DNA of 64,000 nt, taken from Candidatus Acetothermia bacterium (GTDB taxonomy: Bacteria; Bipolaricaulota; Bipolaricaulia; RBG-16-55-9). The stretch spans positions 30,162-94,161 of the forward strand of contig JACQCZ010000005.1 in NCBI GenBank assembly GCA_016201405.1. The letters run 5' to 3'. A model generated the notes under the pieces. It searched no databases. It was not told where the DNA came from and was given only the letters and a program-made list of their open reading frames with translations. The position numbers and the translations under genes are program-made. This document shows, in pieces, positions 9,369-19,000 of the stretch. Positions within the stretch are counted from its first letter, which is position 1; each line of letters begins with the position of its first letter.

Positions 9369-12300
9369 CTATAGTGCTACACAGTGTGTTGCGACTTGGT
9401 TACAAACGAACAGGTTCGATCTCACGAATGGGAGAAGCGTTCCATCGTTGGCGAGCAGCGAGAACTCGGTGAGCACATCACGCGGCTTCACCTGGATCTT
9501 GGTGGTGTCGATCAGCACATAGATCGGGACATTGCTCGGTCCCACTTCTCGTGTGCCATCCCCATCCACATCCAGCTCAATCGTGAACCAGACGGCCGTT
9601 GGTTTACTGACGCCTACGGTGTATAGGATCCGTCCATCTTTGACGGAGCCGGTCATCGTCGGAGTCTGGCTGCTGAATGTTGTCGTTGTCGCTGTGGCGT
9701 TCCCAGTCACTTCAGCTTTGAGCGATGTGAAGACAAAGGGGTTCGCACCGGTGATGTCCGTTCCGCGCAGCTTGATGCTGAAGGTGTGATTCGTGTTCCA
9801 GCTCGGGTCGCCCTGGACTGTGATTCTGATCTGGCTCGATGTGCTTCCTTCAATGAAGACCCCCGGTCCTGGTGGGGGTGGAGGTGGCGTCTGGCTCACT
9901 GTGACGGTTGTTGAAGTAGAATTTGAGCTTCCTAAGTTATCAAAGACGGTGAGTGTCACTGTGTACGTTCCAGCGCTGGCATAGCTGCTCTGGAAGAGGG
10001 AGCTGGTCGAGTCAATTGTCCCATTCCCATCAATGTCCCAGCGATAGCTTGTAATGCTTCCATCTGGGTCGCTGGAGGTCTGTCCATTGAATGTGACAGG
10101 CTGGCCGACTTGTGGTGTCGTTGTGCTGAGCACGATTCGCGCCACAGGGGGCTGATTTGCTGCAGCCTGCACAAAGAGAGTCTGTGTGCTGGAGCCAGTC
10201 GCTCCCTGATTGTCTGTGACTGTGAGAGTGATCGTATAGGTTCTGGATGTCGTGAATTGCACAGTCTGATGAGCGCCGTGCAATTGCAGCTGACTCGATC
10301 CCTGGAAGACCCAGAAGTAGTCTGTAATCGTTCCATCGGGGTCGAACGAGCTGCTGCCGTCAAAGCTGACGGATTGGTTGACAACAGGATTGGTCGGTGT
10401 GAAGGTGAATTGCGAGACTGGCGGCTGGTTCGCTGGACCCGAGGACGTCACTTGGAATGCGGCAAAGTCCAGCGCAAAGCTCGCACCAGGAATGGTGGCC
10501 TGGATGCGCTGTGTCAGGACGGCTTGGAACGTGGTCGGGTTGGTGTAGCTGCTGTTTTGCGTGCCGTTCAATCCAAAGCTGATCTGGCTCGATGTGACCA
10601 CGGCATGTATGTCATCCACGCCAAGGGGACCTGTCACTTGGAGGCTGGAGCCGATTAGTGTCGAGAGGTTGTAAGTTCCTGGTGACAGGAAGCCATTGCC
10701 TCCGCCCAGCGGATACAGATTGCTGACCAGTCCGTTCGGATTGACATCAAAGAGCTGCACATACCCGCTGCCTGTCAACGTAAATGTAATTTGAATTGTG
10801 TCACCCACATTGTAGGACGTGCGGTCTGTATTGACGTCAATGGCCAGCTGGCTTCCAGCTCGGACAGTTATTTGCGAGCTGTTGTTGCTCTCATTGGACT
10901 CCGTTACCTGGTTGAAGGGGTCAACGACGGCGGTCAGAGTCTCTTGGGATGTCGTCAGCTGTCTCTGGAAGGCGAGCTGCACGGATGTGCCAGCCGCAAG
11001 ACCATTCAGGTTCAGACGGCTGAGCCCTTGGCTGTCGCGCAGCTCGACGGAGAAGAAGCTTGCCGCGCCTGTTCCCTGGTTGGCGACTGTCACGGTGTAA
11101 TTGACAGTGCTTCCGATTTGCGGGTTCTGCGGTGAGAAGCTGATTCCTGTCACCAGCAGGTCAGGCAGAGATTGCGTCTGGCTCGTGATCGTCAATTGGA
11201 CGCTGTTGTTGTTCTCGTTTGATTCGCTCACTTGGTTGAATGCGTCAACCGTCAGGGTCTCAGTCTGGCTATTGGCAACCAGTTGGCGGGTGAAGCTGAC
11301 GGTGGTCGATGCTCCGGCAGCCAATGTACTGAAGCTCTGCACCAGGCTTCCAGACGAGTCCGAGAGCTGCACCGAGAATGACCCGGCCGATGCATTCCCT
11401 TGGTTGCTCACTTGGGCTGTGATAGTGACATTACTCCCAATTTGAGGATTGCTGGGCAAATAGGTCGGGTTGCTGATCGTAAGATCTGGGCGGCTCGTAA
11501 TGACACCGACTAAATTGAGCCTTCCTGAGCCAAATTGCGTTGAAGCTCCCATCGGAACAGCATCTGACCGCAGTTTGGTCTCCACTCCGCTAGCTCCCAG
11601 TGCCGGATTCTGTGAGAGAAGCAGAGCGGCAGCTCCGGCCACGTGGGGCGAAGCGGCTGATGTCCCTTGAAATGGGTTGAATTGAGCAGTCGAAACTGAG
11701 ACGTTATCCGGCCCGACGATATCGGGCTTGACCCGGCCATCGGTGGTCGGGCCTTGAGAGCTGTAGGCTTCAAGAGGTCCCGTCGTCCAGCTCAACTGAC
11801 TCACCGCACCCACTGTTATGGCGCTGGACGAATCTCCAGGAGTCACAATGCTCCCGGAAGGAATGGATGGCGTAATATCTTGGTTGAGGTTGAAGATCGA
11901 AAGCTCTTTTGGCGCGTTTACAGTGAGAGGCTTTACTCGAATCTGAAATGTTCCGCCCGAGGGCGCGGTGAAAAAGATGTTTTCAGTCGGAGGCTGCGTG
12001 CCGCTCTGCAACCTTTCGGACGAAGCCAAAATTGCGCCACTCGTCGTCGTCACAAATAGATCATAATCTTGCGAAGTCACTGGCCAGTCTCTCCATGTCA
12101 AATAGACGCTGATGGCCTGGCCTGCCTGCGCTGAAAAATTGATGCCATCTTGACCTGAGAACTCAACCCAGCCGTTGCCATTGCCGTCCAAGGCGACGCC
12201 CTTCCAGTGGCGCTGGGCGTAGTTGCCTGCGGCGCTCACCCAGAGGATTCCCGCTGCGCGTGCGCGCTGGACGGAAGCATCGATTGGGCCAGTCCCGTCA

Positions 12301-13133
12301 TAATAGTTCGTATTGAACCAACCCACGGAGTGGTTGACGATCTGGACTCCCTGGCTGATGGCTTGGTCAACGGCATTTTCCAGGTCGACTTCGTCCGCCA
12401 CTTTCATCAGATAGATCTGGGCATCGGGAGCCATGTCATGCACGATTTCGGTCACGGCCGTGCCGTGTGAAGTCGTGCTCTGAAGCCCGGTGCCCGAGAA
12501 ATCAAACGTAATAGCGTTAGAGGGAATCTCGCCTGCTGCTTGTGCTGACGAGAGGCCAATAAATCCTAGGTCAATCACAGCCACTTTGATGCCTTGGCCG
12601 CGAAAGCCGCTGTTCTGGAATGATGCTGCACCCGTGATATTGACCCCTTCGCTCACCGTGAGGGCTTGCGGAGCGAGGGGGGGCCGGATATAGGCGACCC
12701 CAGCGATACTGGCCAGTTGAATAAGAATGTTGAGCGGATTATTGCTGAGCGGGATCTGCAGCTCAATGAAGCTTCTCGACTGGTTGGTGATGGTGCCGCC
12801 AGAGACTGCGCTCACAGCAGTTATCAATCCAGAGGCCGGGCTTGAGGTTTGCAGGATGACTTTGACTGAGTTTCCTGAGACCTGGATCCCTGCGCGGCTG
12901 GCTGTCTGCTGCACGGACTGGCTGCTCACACCGCCGCCCTGTTGGGCCATCTGAAGCACCTGAGCCAGGACGCTGTCAATTTTGGGACTGACGTTCGATT
13001 TCGAAGATTGCTGCGTGGTCTGGGCCATTGTTGGTTGAGCTGTATCGGTGACCAGGCCCAGCACAAAGACAAAGCTAATCAGGATGACAAGCAGCTTTGC
13101 CTTTTGATGGATGTCAGTTGTATTTACATTCAT
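9369..13133 (-). CDS. Secreted S8 subtilisin-like protease with CARDB x2, DUF4384-like, PKD x2 and C-terminal beta domain
   Basis: Signal peptide; VAVIDLGF (Asp), TSHGTAVTEIVHDMAPDA (His), FQGTSAASPHVAGAAALLL (Ser); two CARDB repeats; SYNVGDTIQITFTLTGSGYVQLFDVNPNG; two NQPPV...DPDG PKD repeats. Confidence 0.9.
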   Translation of the reverse strand: MNVNTTDIHQKAKLLVILISFVFVLGLVTDTAQPTMAQTTQQSSKSNVSPKIDSVLAQVLQMAQQGGGVSSQSVQQTASRAGIQVSGNSVKVILQTSSPASGLITAVSAVSGGTITNQSRSFIELQIPLSNNPLNILIQLASIAGVAYIRPPLAPQALTVSEGVNITGAASFQNSGFRGQGIKVAVIDLGFIGLSSAQAAGEIPSNAITFDFSGTGLQSTTSHGTAVTEIVHDMAPDAQIYLMKVADEVDLENAVDQAISQGVQIVNHSVGWFNTNYYDGTGPIDASVQRARAAGILWVSAAGNYAQRHWKGVALDGNGNGWVEFSGQDGINFSAQAGQAISVYLTWRDWPVTSQDYDLFVTTTSGAILASSERLQSGTQPPTENIFFTAPSGGTFQIRVKPLTVNAPKELSIFNLNQDITPSIPSGSIVTPGDSSSAITVGAVSQLSWTTGPLEAYSSQGPTTDGRVKPDIVGPDNVSVSTAQFNPFQGTSAASPHVAGAAALLLSQNPALGASGVETKLRSDAVPMGASTQFGSGRLNLVGVITSRPDLTISNPTYLPSNPQIGSNVTITAQVSNQGNASAGSFSVQLSDSSGSLVQSFSTLAAGASTTVSFTRQLVANSQTETLTVDAFNQVSESNENNNSVQLTITSQTQSLPDLLVTGISFSPQNPQIGSTVNYTVTVANQGTGAASFFSVELRDSQGLSRLNLNGLAAGTSVQLAFQRQLTTSQETLTAVVDPFNQVTESNESNNSSQITVRAGSQLAIDVNTDRTSYNVGDTIQITFTLTGSGYVQLFDVNPNGLVSNLYPLGGGNGFLSPGTYNLSTLIGSSLQVTGPLGVDDIHAVVTSSQISFGLNGTQNSSYTNPTTFQAVLTQRIQATIPGASFALDFAAFQVTSSGPANQPPVSQFTFTPTNPVVNQSVSFDGSSSFDPDGTITDYFWVFQGSSQLQLHGAHQTVQFTTSRTYTITLTVTDNQGATGSSTQTLFVQAAANQPPVARIVLSTTTPQVGQPVTFNGQTSSDPDGSITSYRWDIDGNGTIDSTSSLFQSSYASAGTYTVTLTVFDNLGSSNSTSTTVTVSQTPPPPPPGPGVFIEGSTSSQIRITVQGDPSWNTNHTFSIKLRGTDITGANPFVFTSLKAEVTGNATATTTTFSSQTPTMTGSVKDGRILYTVGVSKPTAVWFTIELDVDGDGTREVGPSNVPIYVLIDTTKIQVKPRDVLTEFSLLANDGTLLPFVRSNLFVCNQVATHCVAL

Positions 13134-13172: not shown

Positions 13173-14006
13173 TTATGATCCTGGTGGCTGTGGGTTGTTG
13201 GGTAGCCGTACGAACTTCACGCCGGATTGGCTGGCCAGTTCTGCCAGACGATAGATCAGAGCCTGCACTCGCACAAAATTGTCCGAGCGGGACTCGATCA
13301 CGAGATCCAGGCTGTCGGGCAGTTGAGCGTCTGGAGCTGCGAGCTCGACTAGAACCCTGGCCCGAAGACCGGAGAGAGCGATTCCATTCAACTGCGCATA
13401 GTCATTCCAATCCGGGGCAGAGACCAGGCCGTACAAGACAGAGTCAATGTGAACTCCGTCGGGAGGCTGAATCTTGGCGGAGGTGATGAGTGGCTCCAGG
13501 GTCAGTGCTGTGATTGGCGTAGACAAGAAGCCAAAGGGCGCGAGGGCATCTTGAACCTTGCCAAGATCTTCAGCGCTCAGCTCTGTCTTGGGGAGCGCGG
13601 GAGAGATGATCAGCTCATATTGCAGCTGCACGGATGCGCTTTGAGGTCGCAAATGGACTTCCATGTCGCTCACTTGGATCTGAATCCAGAAGTGCTGTCC
13701 ATCTACATAGAGCCGTGGCATCTGGAAGAAGCTGCTCTCTTGAGCTGGGTTGCACTGCGTGCAGGGCTCTTTGCCCTTTACATATGTGATGTCTGTGCCG
13801 GTTTGAATGCGAATCCAGTAGTCAGAGTTTTGGGCCGTAGAGATCACTTGCAGCGGGTTGACAGCGGTCAGCGTCACGGTAGCGTGAAAGTGCCGTTGCG
13901 AATCTACGAGCGCGGCACTGGCTCCATTCGTGTCTGAGACAATGCCAACTGCGGGTGCTGCAAGCAAGAGCGTCAGCACCGCCCAGAGTGTGAACTGAGC
14001 TTTCAT
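13173..14006 (-). CDS. Secreted protein with C-terminal subtilase-propeptide-like segment
   Basis: Signal peptide MKAQFTLWAVLTLLLAAPAVG; C-terminus aligns by eye with the propeptide of the adjacent subtilase. Confidence 0.65.
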   Translation of the reverse strand: MKAQFTLWAVLTLLLAAPAVGIVSDTNGASAALVDSQRHFHATVTLTAVNPLQVISTAQNSDYWIRIQTGTDITYVKGKEPCTQCNPAQESSFFQMPRLYVDGQHFWIQIQVSDMEVHLRPQSASVQLQYELIISPALPKTELSAEDLGKVQDALAPFGFLSTPITALTLEPLITSAKIQPPDGVHIDSVLYGLVSAPDWNDYAQLNGIALSGLRARVLVELAAPDAQLPDSLDLVIESRSDNFVRVQALIYRLAELASQSGVKFVRLPNNPQPPGS

Positions 14007-14034
14007 AGTCTGCTCCTTTCGTGAGGGGGTAGGC

Positions 14035-14059
14035 GGGAGAGCCCGGAATGGGCTCTCCC
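14035..14059. other. Intergenic hairpin GGGAGAGCCC-ggaat-GGGCTCTCCC
   Basis: Perfect 10-bp inverted repeat between two codirectional minus-strand genes; no clear T-tract. Confidence 0.55.
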
Positions 14060-14083
14060 CTGTGGTCGTTTCCTTGAGAGTGA

Positions 14084-15463
14084 TTATAGGCCTTGGAAGT
14101 TGAAGCAGAGGCTGATGAACAGCCCAGGCTGATTGACCAGCACGAGACAGACCTGGATATTGAGGAATATGTCAATCTGTCCAGGAGTCGTAAAGCTGAG
14201 AATAAACGGGTCTGATGGCGGATGCTTCAGCTCTGTACCCAAGAAGATGAAATTTCTGCTGTGCTCCATGATGCCATTGGCATCCGAGTCGAGCTGGAGA
14301 TCGAACTTCACCTGGGTCGTCGTGCTGGATATTCCAATCGTGTATTCCACTTTGCCTGTGCCGACCAGACCGCTGAAATTCAGGATGTTCTGGTTGACTG
14401 GAACAGGCTGGATTCCCTGGGCTGCGGCATTTCCAGAGGCCGACTGGTTGACCGTGGTAAAGAAGCCGTTATTGGCTTCAAGATGAATCTGATAGGCTCT
14501 TGACACGAACCAGTCAGCCTGCCCTTGGATTGTGAGTTTGAAGTGGGTGCTATCCACACGAGTCACATAGTATCCGCCTTGCTGTGGGCTTGGGTTTCCA
14601 CCGAAGGACAGTACCGTGATCAATTGAGCAGTGGAGCTGGCTGCTCCATGATTATCTACAGCAGTCAGTGTCACTTGATAGGTTCCGGGAAGTGCATAGA
14701 TATGGAAGGTCGTTGCTCCGACAGCGGTCATGCCATCGCCAAAGTTCCAGATGTTCTGAGTGACAAAGTCACCGGCGTCTGGATCAAATGAGTTGGAGAT
14801 GAACTGAATGACCTGCCCGGCGAGTGCAAACTGCGGTGAGGCTGTGAACTGTGCAATTGGAGCTTGATTGAAGGTCGGGGGTGGTGGATTGGGATTTGAG
14901 GAGGTGACGACGAAGCTGGCGAAATCAGAGGCGATTCTGCCGACAGCGATGATTCCCTGGATGGCTGCCTGCACCTGTTGCGCAAATTGTGCTGGATTGG
15001 TGCATAGAGTTGGAAATGGGTTTCCAGGAGTTGGGTTTGCATTGAATAATGTCCTCAAATCCAGCGGGTCCAAGCTGGCGAAGGCCTGAACATATTCCGT
15101 CCCAAAGGGCGGCACGACTTGGAACCGATAAAGGTTTGGCCTGTCGGATAATGAGAATTGCCCTACGGGAACGAGCGAGTTGGGCGAAAAAGCGTTCGGG
15201 AATATGAGGGAGCAGTTGCCTGCGGCATCAATATCCACTACGTTCAGATAGACCTGCCCAACGCTGGGGGCCGTCGTGTTTATTTGGATGGTGATCTCTT
15301 CGCCGACTTGATAGGAGGCTTTTGCGAGGCTGACGTCCACTTGAATGTTGCTGTTGCTAGGGATGGGCACAATCCCCTGTGGCGCTTGCGCCAAACCCAG
15401 CTGTCCAAAGAGACTGATTATTGCCATTACGGCGATCATCACTGTAAATCTCTTAACGTTCAT
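14084..15463 (-). CDS. Secreted DUF4384-like/PKD protein, paralogous in modules to the subtilase C-terminal half
   Basis: Signal peptide; SYQVGEEITIQINTTAP, FNQAPIAQFTASP...SFDPDAGD PKD, C-terminal FKLTIQGQADW...KVEYTIGIS; start at 15463 with AAAGGAG RBS. Confidence 0.75.
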   Translation of the reverse strand: MNVKRFTVMIAVMAIISLFGQLGLAQAPQGIVPIPSNSNIQVDVSLAKASYQVGEEITIQINTTAPSVGQVYLNVVDIDAAGNCSLIFPNAFSPNSLVPVGQFSLSDRPNLYRFQVVPPFGTEYVQAFASLDPLDLRTLFNANPTPGNPFPTLCTNPAQFAQQVQAAIQGIIAVGRIASDFASFVVTSSNPNPPPPTFNQAPIAQFTASPQFALAGQVIQFISNSFDPDAGDFVTQNIWNFGDGMTAVGATTFHIYALPGTYQVTLTAVDNHGAASSTAQLITVLSFGGNPSPQQGGYYVTRVDSTHFKLTIQGQADWFVSRAYQIHLEANNGFFTTVNQSASGNAAAQGIQPVPVNQNILNFSGLVGTGKVEYTIGISSTTTQVKFDLQLDSDANGIMEHSRNFIFLGTELKHPPSDPFILSFTTPGQIDIFLNIQVCLVLVNQPGLFISLCFNFQGL

Positions 15464-15554
15464 TGCAGACTCCTTTCTCTTTTCTTGCGGCTGCATGGAA
15501 CTTTCTCTCACTGAAAATGTCTTTGTCCCGGTCATAGCTTTTGCGTCCCCTCTC

Positions 15555-16316
15555 TTATGTAGAGCACTTCCCTCGCCTCACGCATGCATTCAACGCGATG
15601 CCTGAGAGCTCGGCTCCGGTCACATTAGACTGAATGTCGTTTACCATCTGCTGGGTCAACGTGGTCCCAATAAGATTCTTGAGTCTTCCAATGACGAAAT
15701 CGTCAACAGCTTGAGCATTCCGCGCATCGCTATTGGGGTTGTTGCTGTTGGCAATGTAGTCTTCAAGAGCCTTTGAGATCTCTGTTATTGATGTATCCGA
15801 AAGTGCTTGCGAATATTTCTGGGTGCTTATTCCTTTGCTGTCCAAAAGCTTCTTGACCTCTTCCAGCGTCGCGGCGAGCGCCTGAACGTTCCCAACGATG
15901 ACATCAAAAGGAGCATGGAGCAGGACTCCCTCGGCGATATTGTCAATCAATAGCTGTACTGGAATTTTATTATTCAGAGTGTTTGTAAAAACAGTGCATA
16001 TCTGCTCTTTCTGGGTCTGAGTGGCCTGGCTGTTCTCAAGTTTCTTAAGCATGTCCAGCATATCTTCCGGATTGAGCCGGCTCTGCTGGAAAGCAGGCTG
16101 CGTGGCTCCGCTCAAGGCTGTCTTGACAGGGTCAGATACAGTCAGGCACTGGCTGATAAAGCTCTGCACATCGGAAGCCGTGGTCTTATCGCTTGGGGTC
16201 ACCGTGCAGGCCGCAGCCTGGTCCAGCACGAACGATGGGCCGGCTTGAGCCTGGAAGGCCACCAAACCCAGCACTCCCGTGATTAAGATTCCAATCGCTA
16301 ACCAATGTCGCATCAT
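15555..16316 (-). CDS. Secreted alpha-helical protein of unknown function
   Basis: Signal peptide MMRHWLAIGILITGVLGLVAFQAQA; helical composition; no family recognised. Confidence 0.6.
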   Translation of the reverse strand: MMRHWLAIGILITGVLGLVAFQAQAGPSFVLDQAAACTVTPSDKTTASDVQSFISQCLTVSDPVKTALSGATQPAFQQSRLNPEDMLDMLKKLENSQATQTQKEQICTVFTNTLNNKIPVQLLIDNIAEGVLLHAPFDVIVGNVQALAATLEEVKKLLDSKGISTQKYSQALSDTSITEISKALEDYIANSNNPNSDARNAQAVDDFVIGRLKNLIGTTLTQQMVNDIQSNVTGAELSGIALNACVRRGKCST

Positions 16317-16341
16317 GGATATGTACACCCCCTTTACAAAA

Positions 16342-16899
16342 TTACGAGACGAATATGACAGAATTGAGATGGTCATAACTCTTCACATACTCTTGAGCGC
16401 GCGGATCGACGACCATGCGCATTCCGTCCACAATAAACACGTATTCATGGCGTCCTGGTGCAAGGTCCAGCTTGGTGGACCACATGCCCCGGCTGTCACG
16501 GGTCAGTGAGACGGGATCCCACTTGGTGAAGTCGCCCGCGAGCTGCACTTCCTTGGCCTCTGGATAGGCCATCACAAACAACACGCCCTGACCCGATGTG
16601 TTAAAGGCGAGCGTGCCGGTATTTTGCACGACTACCCCAGAGAGAAATCCAATCAAAAAGATGGCTATTGCTGCTGCCAATGCCCATGCCGGGCGCATCG
16701 AGGGCAGTGTTGGAAGCGCCGGGAGCCTGAGCCAAGAGAAGATGCCCTTGCGTTGGGTGCGCTTTTGCAGATGCTCCAGCACATTCTTCTCAATGCGGTC
16801 TAGTCTCGCACCATCGATTTCAACGGCGCGAGAAATTCCATCCTTAATAAATTTTGCTACCTCTTCATCAAAAATCTCATCCCGCATCTCGTTACGCAT
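16342..16899 (-). CDS. Single-TM protein with C-terminal CBM48/AMPK-type glycogen-binding-like domain; candidate anti-sigma factor
   Basis: Start overlaps the sigma gene stop; TM AWALAAAIAIFLIGFLSGVVV; KEVQLAGDFTKWDPVSLTRDSRGMWSTKLDLAPGRHEYVFIVDG. Confidence 0.75.
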   Translation of the reverse strand: MRNEMRDEIFDEEVAKFIKDGISRAVEIDGARLDRIEKNVLEHLQKRTQRKGIFSWLRLPALPTLPSMRPAWALAAAIAIFLIGFLSGVVVQNTGTLAFNTSGQGVLFVMAYPEAKEVQLAGDFTKWDPVSLTRDSRGMWSTKLDLAPGRHEYVFIVDGMRMVVDPRAQEYVKSYDHLNSVIFVS

Positions 16900-17440
16900 T
16901 TCCTTTCACTCCTCTCTCAACCATCCAACTCTTGAGAGCCTCTTTTGCTCGATGAATTCTTGTCTTCACAGTTCCTTCTGGCAGATCCAATATTTGAGCT
17001 ATCTCCAGATAATCCAGTTCTCCGTAGAAGCGCAGCACCATGGGAGAGCGGTACTTCTCATCCAGTGCGGCCAGCGCATCCTGAACCAATTCATGCCGCT
17101 CATCCCGTGCAATTATCGCTTCCGGGTCTTCTGCGTGACCCTCGTACTGAACGGAGTCGTCCAGGCGGGTCTGGAACTTGTTGCGGCGGAGCATGTTCTT
17201 ACAGAGATTGGCCGTGATGGTGAAGATCCACGTCGAGAACTTTCTTTCCATGTCATAGCGGCGCAGGTTCTCGTACGCGCGGATAAATGCATCTTGGGCG
17301 GCATCTTCAGCATCAGCGGAGTTGCCGACGATGCCGAGCGCGATTCCGTAGACTGCACCTTTGTAGCGACGCACGATTTCACCCCATGCTTCGATATTGC
17401 CATCTAAGGCCTGTTGTATGAATCTTCCTTCCTCACCCAT
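16892..17440 (-). CDS. ECF RNA polymerase sigma factor (SigW-like)
   Basis: Region 2: DAEDAAQDAFIRAYENLRRYDMERKFSTWIFTITANLCKNMLRR; region 4: LDYLEIAQILDLPEGTVKTRIHRAKEALK. Confidence 0.93.
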   Translation of the reverse strand: MGEEGRFIQQALDGNIEAWGEIVRRYKGAVYGIALGIVGNSADAEDAAQDAFIRAYENLRRYDMERKFSTWIFTITANLCKNMLRRNKFQTRLDDSVQYEGHAEDPEAIIARDERHELVQDALAALDEKYRSPMVLRFYGELDYLEIAQILDLPEGTVKTRIHRAKEALKSWMVERGVKGNA

Positions 17441-17659: not shown

Positions 17660-19000
17660 TTGATCCTAGAGGTATGGAAGAGACTGCTTGATCTTTTGAC
17701 ACGCCGGTATGTCTATCCTGTTCTGTTATTGGGGCTGAGCATTGTATTGGTCGGATGCCCGGCCTTTGTGAACCAGGCTCCGATTTCCATTGTGGAGGCT
17801 ACGCCGCAGCAAGGCGAAGCGCCGCTCAATGTGCAGTTTGATGGCTCCCACTCCTTTGATGCAGATGGCACAATCGTACTCTATGAGTGGGATTTTGATG
17901 ATGGATCACCGGAAGTCTCTGGCCAGTCTCCTTCTCACAAATTCTCTTCGGATGGAACCTTCCATGTCTTACTTACAGTTACAGATAACTTTGGCAGCAA
18001 GAATACGGGCTCCCTGGTCATCAAGGTGAGCGAATCGAAAGTCTACTTCTCTTCGGATCGCACCGGGAATGCCGAAATATTTGTCATGGATCTCAATGGA
18101 GGCAATCAGTCTGAAGTGACGAGCAATGTCAACCGAGACATCTTCCCCAGTCTTGTTCCGAATACACGCGATAAGCTGGCCTTTGCTTCCGATCGCACGA
18201 CCCCACCCTTCTTTGACATCTTCTCGGCCAATACAGATGGCTCGCTGCCATCCAATTTGACGAATCAGACCAATCACTATTCGATTGAGCCGTCCTGGTC
18301 ACCCGATGGAGAATTTCTGACATACACCACAAACCGCAACGGTGGGAACTTTGAGATTTATATTGCGGCAAAGGATGGCACACTGCTGTCCGGTGGAAAC
18401 CCGATCATCAGCGAGGCGCCCAACTGGGCGTTAGCACCCGCCTGGAAGCCAGTCTTTGTCGCAAAGACGGCCACCTCTGAGACGCATCAGCTGGCCTATG
18501 TGCGATATAACACGGGAACGACAGATAGTGACTTGATACGGGTGCAGTTCACCATTGACTTGACTACAACACCGCCCTCGATTACGACAGTCTCGACCAC
18601 CAACTTGTTGGTGGACGCTGCCAACAAAGATGGCTCGCTCGGCGGTCCGACCTTTGGGATTGCTGGCTTGCCAGGGTCATCCAGGCTCTCATGGAAGTCG
18701 GATGGCACTCGGGTGGCGTTCACGAGGCAGGTTGCCCCAGGGAATCTTGATGTCTTCACGATCGCTTCTGATGGAACATCTCTCAAGAATGTCAACGCCG
18801 AATGCTTCTCTGGAAACGCATCTCAAGCGGGCACCAATGAATTTGATCCGTACTGGATAGAGAACAACGATATTGCGTTTGTATCGGATCGAACGGGATC
18901 TGATCAGGTCTTCAAAGTAGATTGCTCCGCAGGGACGGGTCTTGTTACTCAGCTTACGACGCTGGGGACGGAGAACGTGCACCCTGCAGGACAGAAATAA
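17660..19000 (+). CDS. PKD domain plus TolB-like beta-propeller lipoprotein
   Basis: Lipobox LSIVLVGC; PKD SFDADGTIVLYEWDFDDGS; repeated YFSSDRTGNAEIFVMDLNGG-type blades; TTG start with GGAGGG RBS. Confidence 0.8.
   Translation: MILEVWKRLLDLLTRRYVYPVLLLGLSIVLVGCPAFVNQAPISIVEATPQQGEAPLNVQFDGSHSFDADGTIVLYEWDFDDGSPEVSGQSPSHKFSSDGTFHVLLTVTDNFGSKNTGSLVIKVSESKVYFSSDRTGNAEIFVMDLNGGNQSEVTSNVNRDIFPSLVPNTRDKLAFASDRTTPPFFDIFSANTDGSLPSNLTNQTNHYSIEPSWSPDGEFLTYTTNRNGGNFEIYIAAKDGTLLSGGNPIISEAPNWALAPAWKPVFVAKTATSETHQLAYVRYNTGTTDSDLIRVQFTIDLTTTPPSITTVSTTNLLVDAANKDGSLGGPTFGIAGLPGSSRLSWKSDGTRVAFTRQVAPGNLDVFTIASDGTSLKNVNAECFSGNASQAGTNEFDPYWIENNDIAFVSDRTGSDQVFKVDCSAGTGLVTQLTTLGTENVHPAGQK

Follow-up and report, generated by a model that had tools for sequence, protein, structure and literature searches.

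The window, a 64,000-nucleotide stretch of DNA from a Candidatus Acetothermia bacterium (phylum Bipolaricaulota), encodes a secreted protein whose last ∼93 residues are homologous to the propeptide of the subtilase encoded next to it. Gene linkage, co-occurrence, and parallel trees across the phylum make it very likely that this tail protein and its neighboring protease are functional partners. By comparison with known systems, the tail protein is probably a propeptide-like regulator that is secreted and acts in trans on the subtilase, mainly as an inhibitor.

Tail Protein and Partner Subtilase

The subtilase frame lies directly downstream of the tail gene on the same (minus) strand, and four further operon genes lie upstream. 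The features are as follows.

9369-13133 (open frame to 13172), minus strand: S8 subtilase CDS, likely start ATG at 13133
11493-12650, minus strand: catalytic domain, ORF residues 175-560 (PF00082; active-site Asp, His, Asn, and Ser present)
12663-12986, minus strand: cis propeptide of the subtilase, ORF residues 63-170 (alignment and profile match to the tail)
13173-14006, minus strand: tail protein CDS, 277 aa, class 1 trans partner (orthologues in most Bipolaricaulota genomes)
13176-13220, minus strand: C-terminal strand of the tail, VKFVRLPNNPQPPGS, presumed cleft-binding segment (alignment to the propeptide end)
13176-13454, minus strand: propeptide-like tail domain, residues 185-277 (homology, profiles, tree, predicted fold)
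13455-13910, minus strand: N-terminal domain of the tail protein, residues 33-184 (confident structure model)
13914-14006, minus strand: predicted signal peptide, about residues 1-31 of the tail protein (read from sequence)
14084-15535, minus strand: secreted DUF4384 + PKD protein, upstream operon gene (same place in several relatives)
15555-16376, minus strand: P273, secreted, no known domain, upstream operon gene (domain search, relatives' loci)
16342-16899, minus strand: single-pass membrane protein with an AMPK1_CBM/CBM48-like domain, anti-sigma-like position (domain match, relatives' loci)
16892-17440, minus strand: ECF-type sigma factor, upstream operon gene (PF04542, PF08281)

The tail protein consists of a signal peptide, an N-terminal domain of ∼150 aa, and the ∼93-aa tail, and the ATG of its gene at 14006 is preceded by AAGGAG. 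All of its orthologues carry a hydrophobic N-terminal signal, a region in which the model of the window protein is of low confidence. The N-terminal domain, which contains a CxxC in part of the family, gave no match to Pfam, NCBIfam, or PDB sequences and no credible Foldseek match, and no Pfam or NCBIfam model covers the tail family. The tail ORFs of 631-649 aa at three loci (L054, L061, and L077) were considered as proteins with long N-terminal extensions forming a domain; this was rejected because the added length is open frame that precedes an internal start with a signal peptide.

The subtilase is built of a signal, the propeptide, a catalytic domain with a PPC-like insert, two CARDB domains, a DUF4384 domain, and two PKD domains. 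Translation probably starts at the ATG at 13133 (MNVNTTDI..., behind AAGGAAG), which would leave an intergenic gap of about 39 nt. The protease has the Asp/His/Ser triad and the oxyanion Asn that characterize family S8, and this intact catalytic quartet is invariant in 42 of 42 related proteases. The paired subtilases also keep a conserved cis propeptide of their own. Those at L040, L045, and L057, with other f6/f7 subtilases, carry an extra domain of about 165 residues between signal peptide and propeptide, which looks by eye like a portion of a solute-binding protein and has no Pfam match. A duplication of this region as the source of the tail protein's N-terminal domain was ruled out, as the two show no similarity.

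Homology of the Tail and the Cis Propeptide

A first-pass annotation had aligned the tail by eye with the pre-catalytic region of the adjacent S8 protease, with IDSVL at the start and GV.[YF][IV]R.P..PQ at the end. Both motifs are present exactly as described, the coordinates hold, and the alignment itself stands up to randomization: the two segments give a local BLOSUM62 score of 79 compared with 26.2 ± 4.5 for shuffled sequences, and none of 3000 shuffles reaches 79. When the whole tail protein is searched against subtilase residues 1-200, the identical alignment is found (0 of 2000 shuffles). The profile comparison that the annotation proposed is likewise significant, with separately built family profiles of tail and cis propeptide matching in HHalign at 98.2% (E = 5.7e-14); as a negative control, the N-terminal domain of the tail protein against the propeptides gives 1.7% (E = 0.029). 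A second, paralogous system pairs a short tail-only protein (about 128-216 aa, class 2) with another subtilase. HHalign links class-1 to class-2 tails (E = 2.9e-23) and class-2 tails to their own cis propeptides (E = 3.3e-20). Pairwise identity is low and the gaps are many, as would be expected if two unrelated segments happened to look alike, but given the shuffles, the controlled profile match, and the predicted fold, we regard the probability of a chance resemblance as negligible.

Predicted Fold

The AlphaFold model of the full-length tail protein is confident (pLDDT 89.1). Foldseek searches with the full-length model were obscured by spurious alignments of the lipocalin and Bet v 1 types (TMq about 0.2, with rmsd mostly above 8 Å), so the tail domain was folded alone (pLDDT 93.5). 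The predicted fold is that of a subtilase prodomain, which bears out the first-pass annotation as regards a shared fold. In the PDB, the best match is the CspB prodomain (prob 0.99), the BPN' prosegment matches with prob 0.96 and TMt 0.73, and about half of the top 20 matches are subtilase prodomains; the PC1/3 prodomain, the cucumisin propeptide, Tk-subtilisin, pro-subtilisin E, and the Aeromonas sobria chaperone ORF2 also rank within the top 20. The Foldseek E-values are weak despite the high probabilities (best 0.014), as is usual for a domain of small size. In class 1, only a turn is left of the first prodomain helix, which some class-2 sequences seem to retain. With these two qualifications, the tail model has the subtilase-propeptide fold that is characteristic of I9. 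Pfam I9 (PF05922) has no match in 39 full-length, 55 tail-domain, and 42 cis propeptide sequences, and the true I9 matches in the phylum fall in other ORFs. One tail domain matches ORF_2_N at E = 0.15, below any cut-off. We also note weak matches to NapD in 5 of the 55 tail domains (best E = 0.0012), probably a resemblance at the level of the fold, NapD being another small chaperone-like protein with a ferredoxin-like fold.

The C-terminal strand is the best-conserved stretch of the trans tails, though it is never a cleavage junction there. Across 55 trans tails, its Arg is invariant and two prolines are near-invariant (VRxPxxP). The trans chain usually stops 7-14 residues past the Arg, whereas the cis chain continues into the mature enzyme. 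The P1 position in the tails is presumed from alignment with subtilisin; on this basis, proline follows the presumed P1 in 47 of 63 trans versus 11 of 64 cis sequences, counts taken from related sequences that are not independent. Within a pair, the cis and trans P1-equivalent residues sometimes disagree.

Linkage, Co-occurrence, and Operon Context

We examined 42 class-1 tail loci, the window included. Wherever both genes are present, the tail gene precedes, in the same orientation, a subtilase gene that encodes a homologous propeptide. The gaps between the two are mostly from -4 to about 30 nt, with a frequent 4-nt overlap; larger overlaps reflect ORFs extended to the first possible start codon. 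Among 100 Bipolaricaulota genomes, all metagenome-assembled, 61 have both the class-1 tail and the subtilase type, 32 have neither, and 7 have one only (Fisher p = 2e-18 in a test that ignores relatedness). Six of the seven one-gene genomes are explained by contig ends. The seventh, G084, is the sole one with enough sequence past the tail gene, and it has no such subtilase. Another genome, G024, has one paired copy and one orphan tail gene. The two orphans (L049 7980-8897 in G024 and L136 8461-9288 in G084) have intact C-termini and no subtilase downstream; such orphan class-1 genes occur so far only in genus g14, and the target of their products might be a protease from another locus. The window's genome also encodes two further subtilases with the class-1 type of propeptide (L115 and L116) that have no partner in the surrounding 14 kb.

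The class-2 partner lies upstream of its subtilase in some families and downstream in others, and most class-2 partners have a lipobox or an N-terminal membrane anchor, as read by eye. The window's own genome also contains such a pair, a second subtilase followed by a lipoprotein-type tail partner (L062 7593-10749, on contig C18 of genome G000).

Upstream of the tail gene, an operon order is conserved between the window (13173-17440, minus strand) and L024, L027-L034, and L036: an ECF sigma factor, a membrane protein with an extracytoplasmic AMPK1_CBM/CBM48-like domain, P273, often the DUF4384 + PKD protein, the tail protein, and the subtilase. The position of the membrane protein (16342-16899) suggests an anti-sigma role; more speculatively, it might sense sugars and might itself be processed by the subtilase. 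Beside the sigma factor lies a divergent gene (17660-19000, plus strand) with a PKD domain and WD40-like PD40 repeats, which, by its PKD match, is conserved beside the operon in relatives.

Evolutionary History of the Pairs

In a tree of 111 domains, 56 trans tails fall on one side and 55 cis propeptides on the other (support 97/89), and the two halves branch broadly in parallel; the underlying alignment has few columns and the branches are long. The first-pass annotation had called the tail a copy of the subtilase's propeptide. The homology is upheld, but the trans tails form a clade of their own and the tail is an ancient paralogue, so a recent local copy of the cognate propeptide is ruled out. 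The simplest reading of the sequences would be one ancient propeptide duplication, followed by duplication of the whole pair and by gain of the N-terminal domain in class 1. An independent origin of the two trans classes from the propeptides of their own proteases is disfavored by the 97/89 branch, although the alternative tree that groups class-1 tails with class-1 propeptides is not rejected (AU p = 0.157).

Ten genomes that have both pair types allowed partners to be swapped. Of the 1024 within-genome assignments, the one with the true partners ranks first in distance correlation, with 0.886 for tail versus propeptide and 0.938 for tail versus catalytic domain. When all partners are swapped at once, the correlations are still 0.82 and 0.78, so class structure accounts for much of the pairing signal, and the true partners lead by a moderate margin. 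Over 51 pairs, the distances of tail and catalytic domain correlate at 0.86.

The tail protein lacks a catalytic domain and orphan genes exist in genus g14, as might be seen if the gene had split off from a subtilase precursor gene, or were a degenerating duplicate of one, and no longer had a function. The signal peptides and reading frames are nevertheless intact in most of the phylum, some residues are near-invariant, and the gene co-occurs with the protease, which makes a functionless remnant very improbable.

Function of the Trans Partner

Prodomains bind subtilases through a β-sheet face and insert a C-terminal strand into the cleft (PMC6993865, PMC3567191). If the tail domain behaves as cis propeptides and stand-alone I9 inhibitors do, it would sit on the catalytic domain with its C-terminal strand (VRLPNNPQ-PPGS) occupying the substrate cleft, and the tail protein would thereby hold mature or prematurely released protease inactive. 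Since the chain ends at the strand and often has proline after the presumed P1, the tail may be cut poorly and so outlast the cis propeptide. The partner does not stand in for a missing propeptide, since the protease has one of its own, and the best reading is that the presumed inhibitor acts besides it.

The first-pass annotation held that the tail protein inhibits or assists the protease encoded downstream. Phylum-wide linkage, co-occurrence, and parallel trees support the partnership, with inhibition the likelier of the two roles. If it were mainly an external chaperone, the tail protein would be synthesized ahead of the large multidomain subtilase, aid its folding or its passage across the envelope, and then be released or degraded, with inhibition as a by-product, as for ORF2 and the Aeromonas sobria serine protease (ASP). 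Prodomains do fold subtilases in trans (PMC3567191), ORF2, which is among the Foldseek matches, adjoins its protease gene and has its C-terminus at the active site (PMC5638518), and the tail gene is translated first, often with the 4-nt overlap. ORF2, however, serves a propeptide-deficient protease, whereas the paired subtilases here keep a conserved cis propeptide; the partner is encoded downstream and is a lipoprotein or membrane-anchored in some class-2 loci; and the two same-type subtilases without a nearby partner in the window's genome indicate that folding of the type as such does not need one. We therefore consider a role chiefly as chaperone unlikely. The anchors of the class-2 partners and the conserved N-terminal domain of class 1 would also fit a docking or targeting module. 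In that case, the prodomain fold would be retained purely for binding and would link the protease to the N-terminal domain in class 1 or to the membrane in class 2, bringing it to a particular site or offering it a substrate while its activity hardly changes. Conservation, however, peaks in the very strand that fills the cleft in prodomains and would block activity, which leaves such a tether quite improbable.

Inhibition is preferred over either role given the protease's own propeptide and the partnerless subtilases of the same type, and it is further favored by the high conservation of the presumed cleft-entering strand by the proline after the presumed P1, and by the precedents of SUB1-ProM and of the CspB prodomain, each of which blocks its protease as a separate molecule. 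Against it stand the weak Foldseek E-values, the largely lost first helix in class 1, the orphans of genus g14, the P1 mismatch between cis and trans in some pairs, and the presence of the proline in 11 cis sequences as well. It is quite possible that inhibitor and chaperone or docking roles are combined in one protein.

Relation to Known Systems

Several known proteins resemble the tail protein in part. SUB1-ProM, a stand-alone propeptide-like protein encoded beside subtilase genes in Plasmodium, is a potent and selective inhibitor of SUB1 (PMC6993865). Like it, the tail protein is a separate secreted propeptide-like product without a protease domain, encoded at a conserved locus beside a subtilase; unlike it, the tail protein is bacterial, has an extra N-terminal domain with no comparable counterpart in SUB1-ProM, and would be an inhibitor by inference, while the propeptide kinship of SUB1-ProM is known mainly from structure modeling. 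The stand-alone I9 inhibitors (Pleurotus POIA1, yeast proteinase B inhibitor 2, and Arabidopsis SPI-1) and TgMIC5 share the subtilase-propeptide fold as a separate gene product, yet they are eukaryotic. Such stand-alone inhibitors are described as having no significant sequence similarity to propeptides, possibly owing to convergence (PMC6993865), whereas the tail is clearly homologous to its cognate propeptide and has no Pfam I9 match. The Aeromonas sobria ASP/ORF2 pair is, as here, a bacterial two-gene module (PMC5638518), but its gene order is reversed and ASP lacks a propeptide, whereas the subtilase here has a homologous one. The top fold match, the prodomain of Clostridium CspB, stays bound to the protease, and in trans it both folds and blocks CspB, which also has an insert in its catalytic domain (PMC3567191); it differs in being self-cleaved from the same chain rather than encoded by a separate gene. 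These comparisons suggest that the tail family is I9-like in its mode of action and yet a separate, unnamed family.

Among the papers covered by our literature search, none joins Bipolaricaulota and subtilisin, and separate propeptide-like protease partners have been described so far mainly in eukaryotes. Here, a cis propeptide and a trans partner that are visibly paralogous stand side by side across a phylum, in two pair types, which offers a bacterial case for tracing and testing how a folding aid could become a separate inhibitor. More tentatively, the pairs may represent an ancient phylum-wide control system in which a single propeptide duplication gave rise to a dedicated trans inhibitor, inherited with the protease ever since as a double latch of cis and trans propeptides. 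In part of the phylum, this latch would be wired to the ECF sigma/anti-sigma operon; latch and protease could then belong to a pathway that senses the envelope or carbohydrates, in which the N-terminal domain would switch the latch to release. For this conserved but unnamed Bipolaricaulota family and the proteases paired with it, these results provide a first hypothesis of function.
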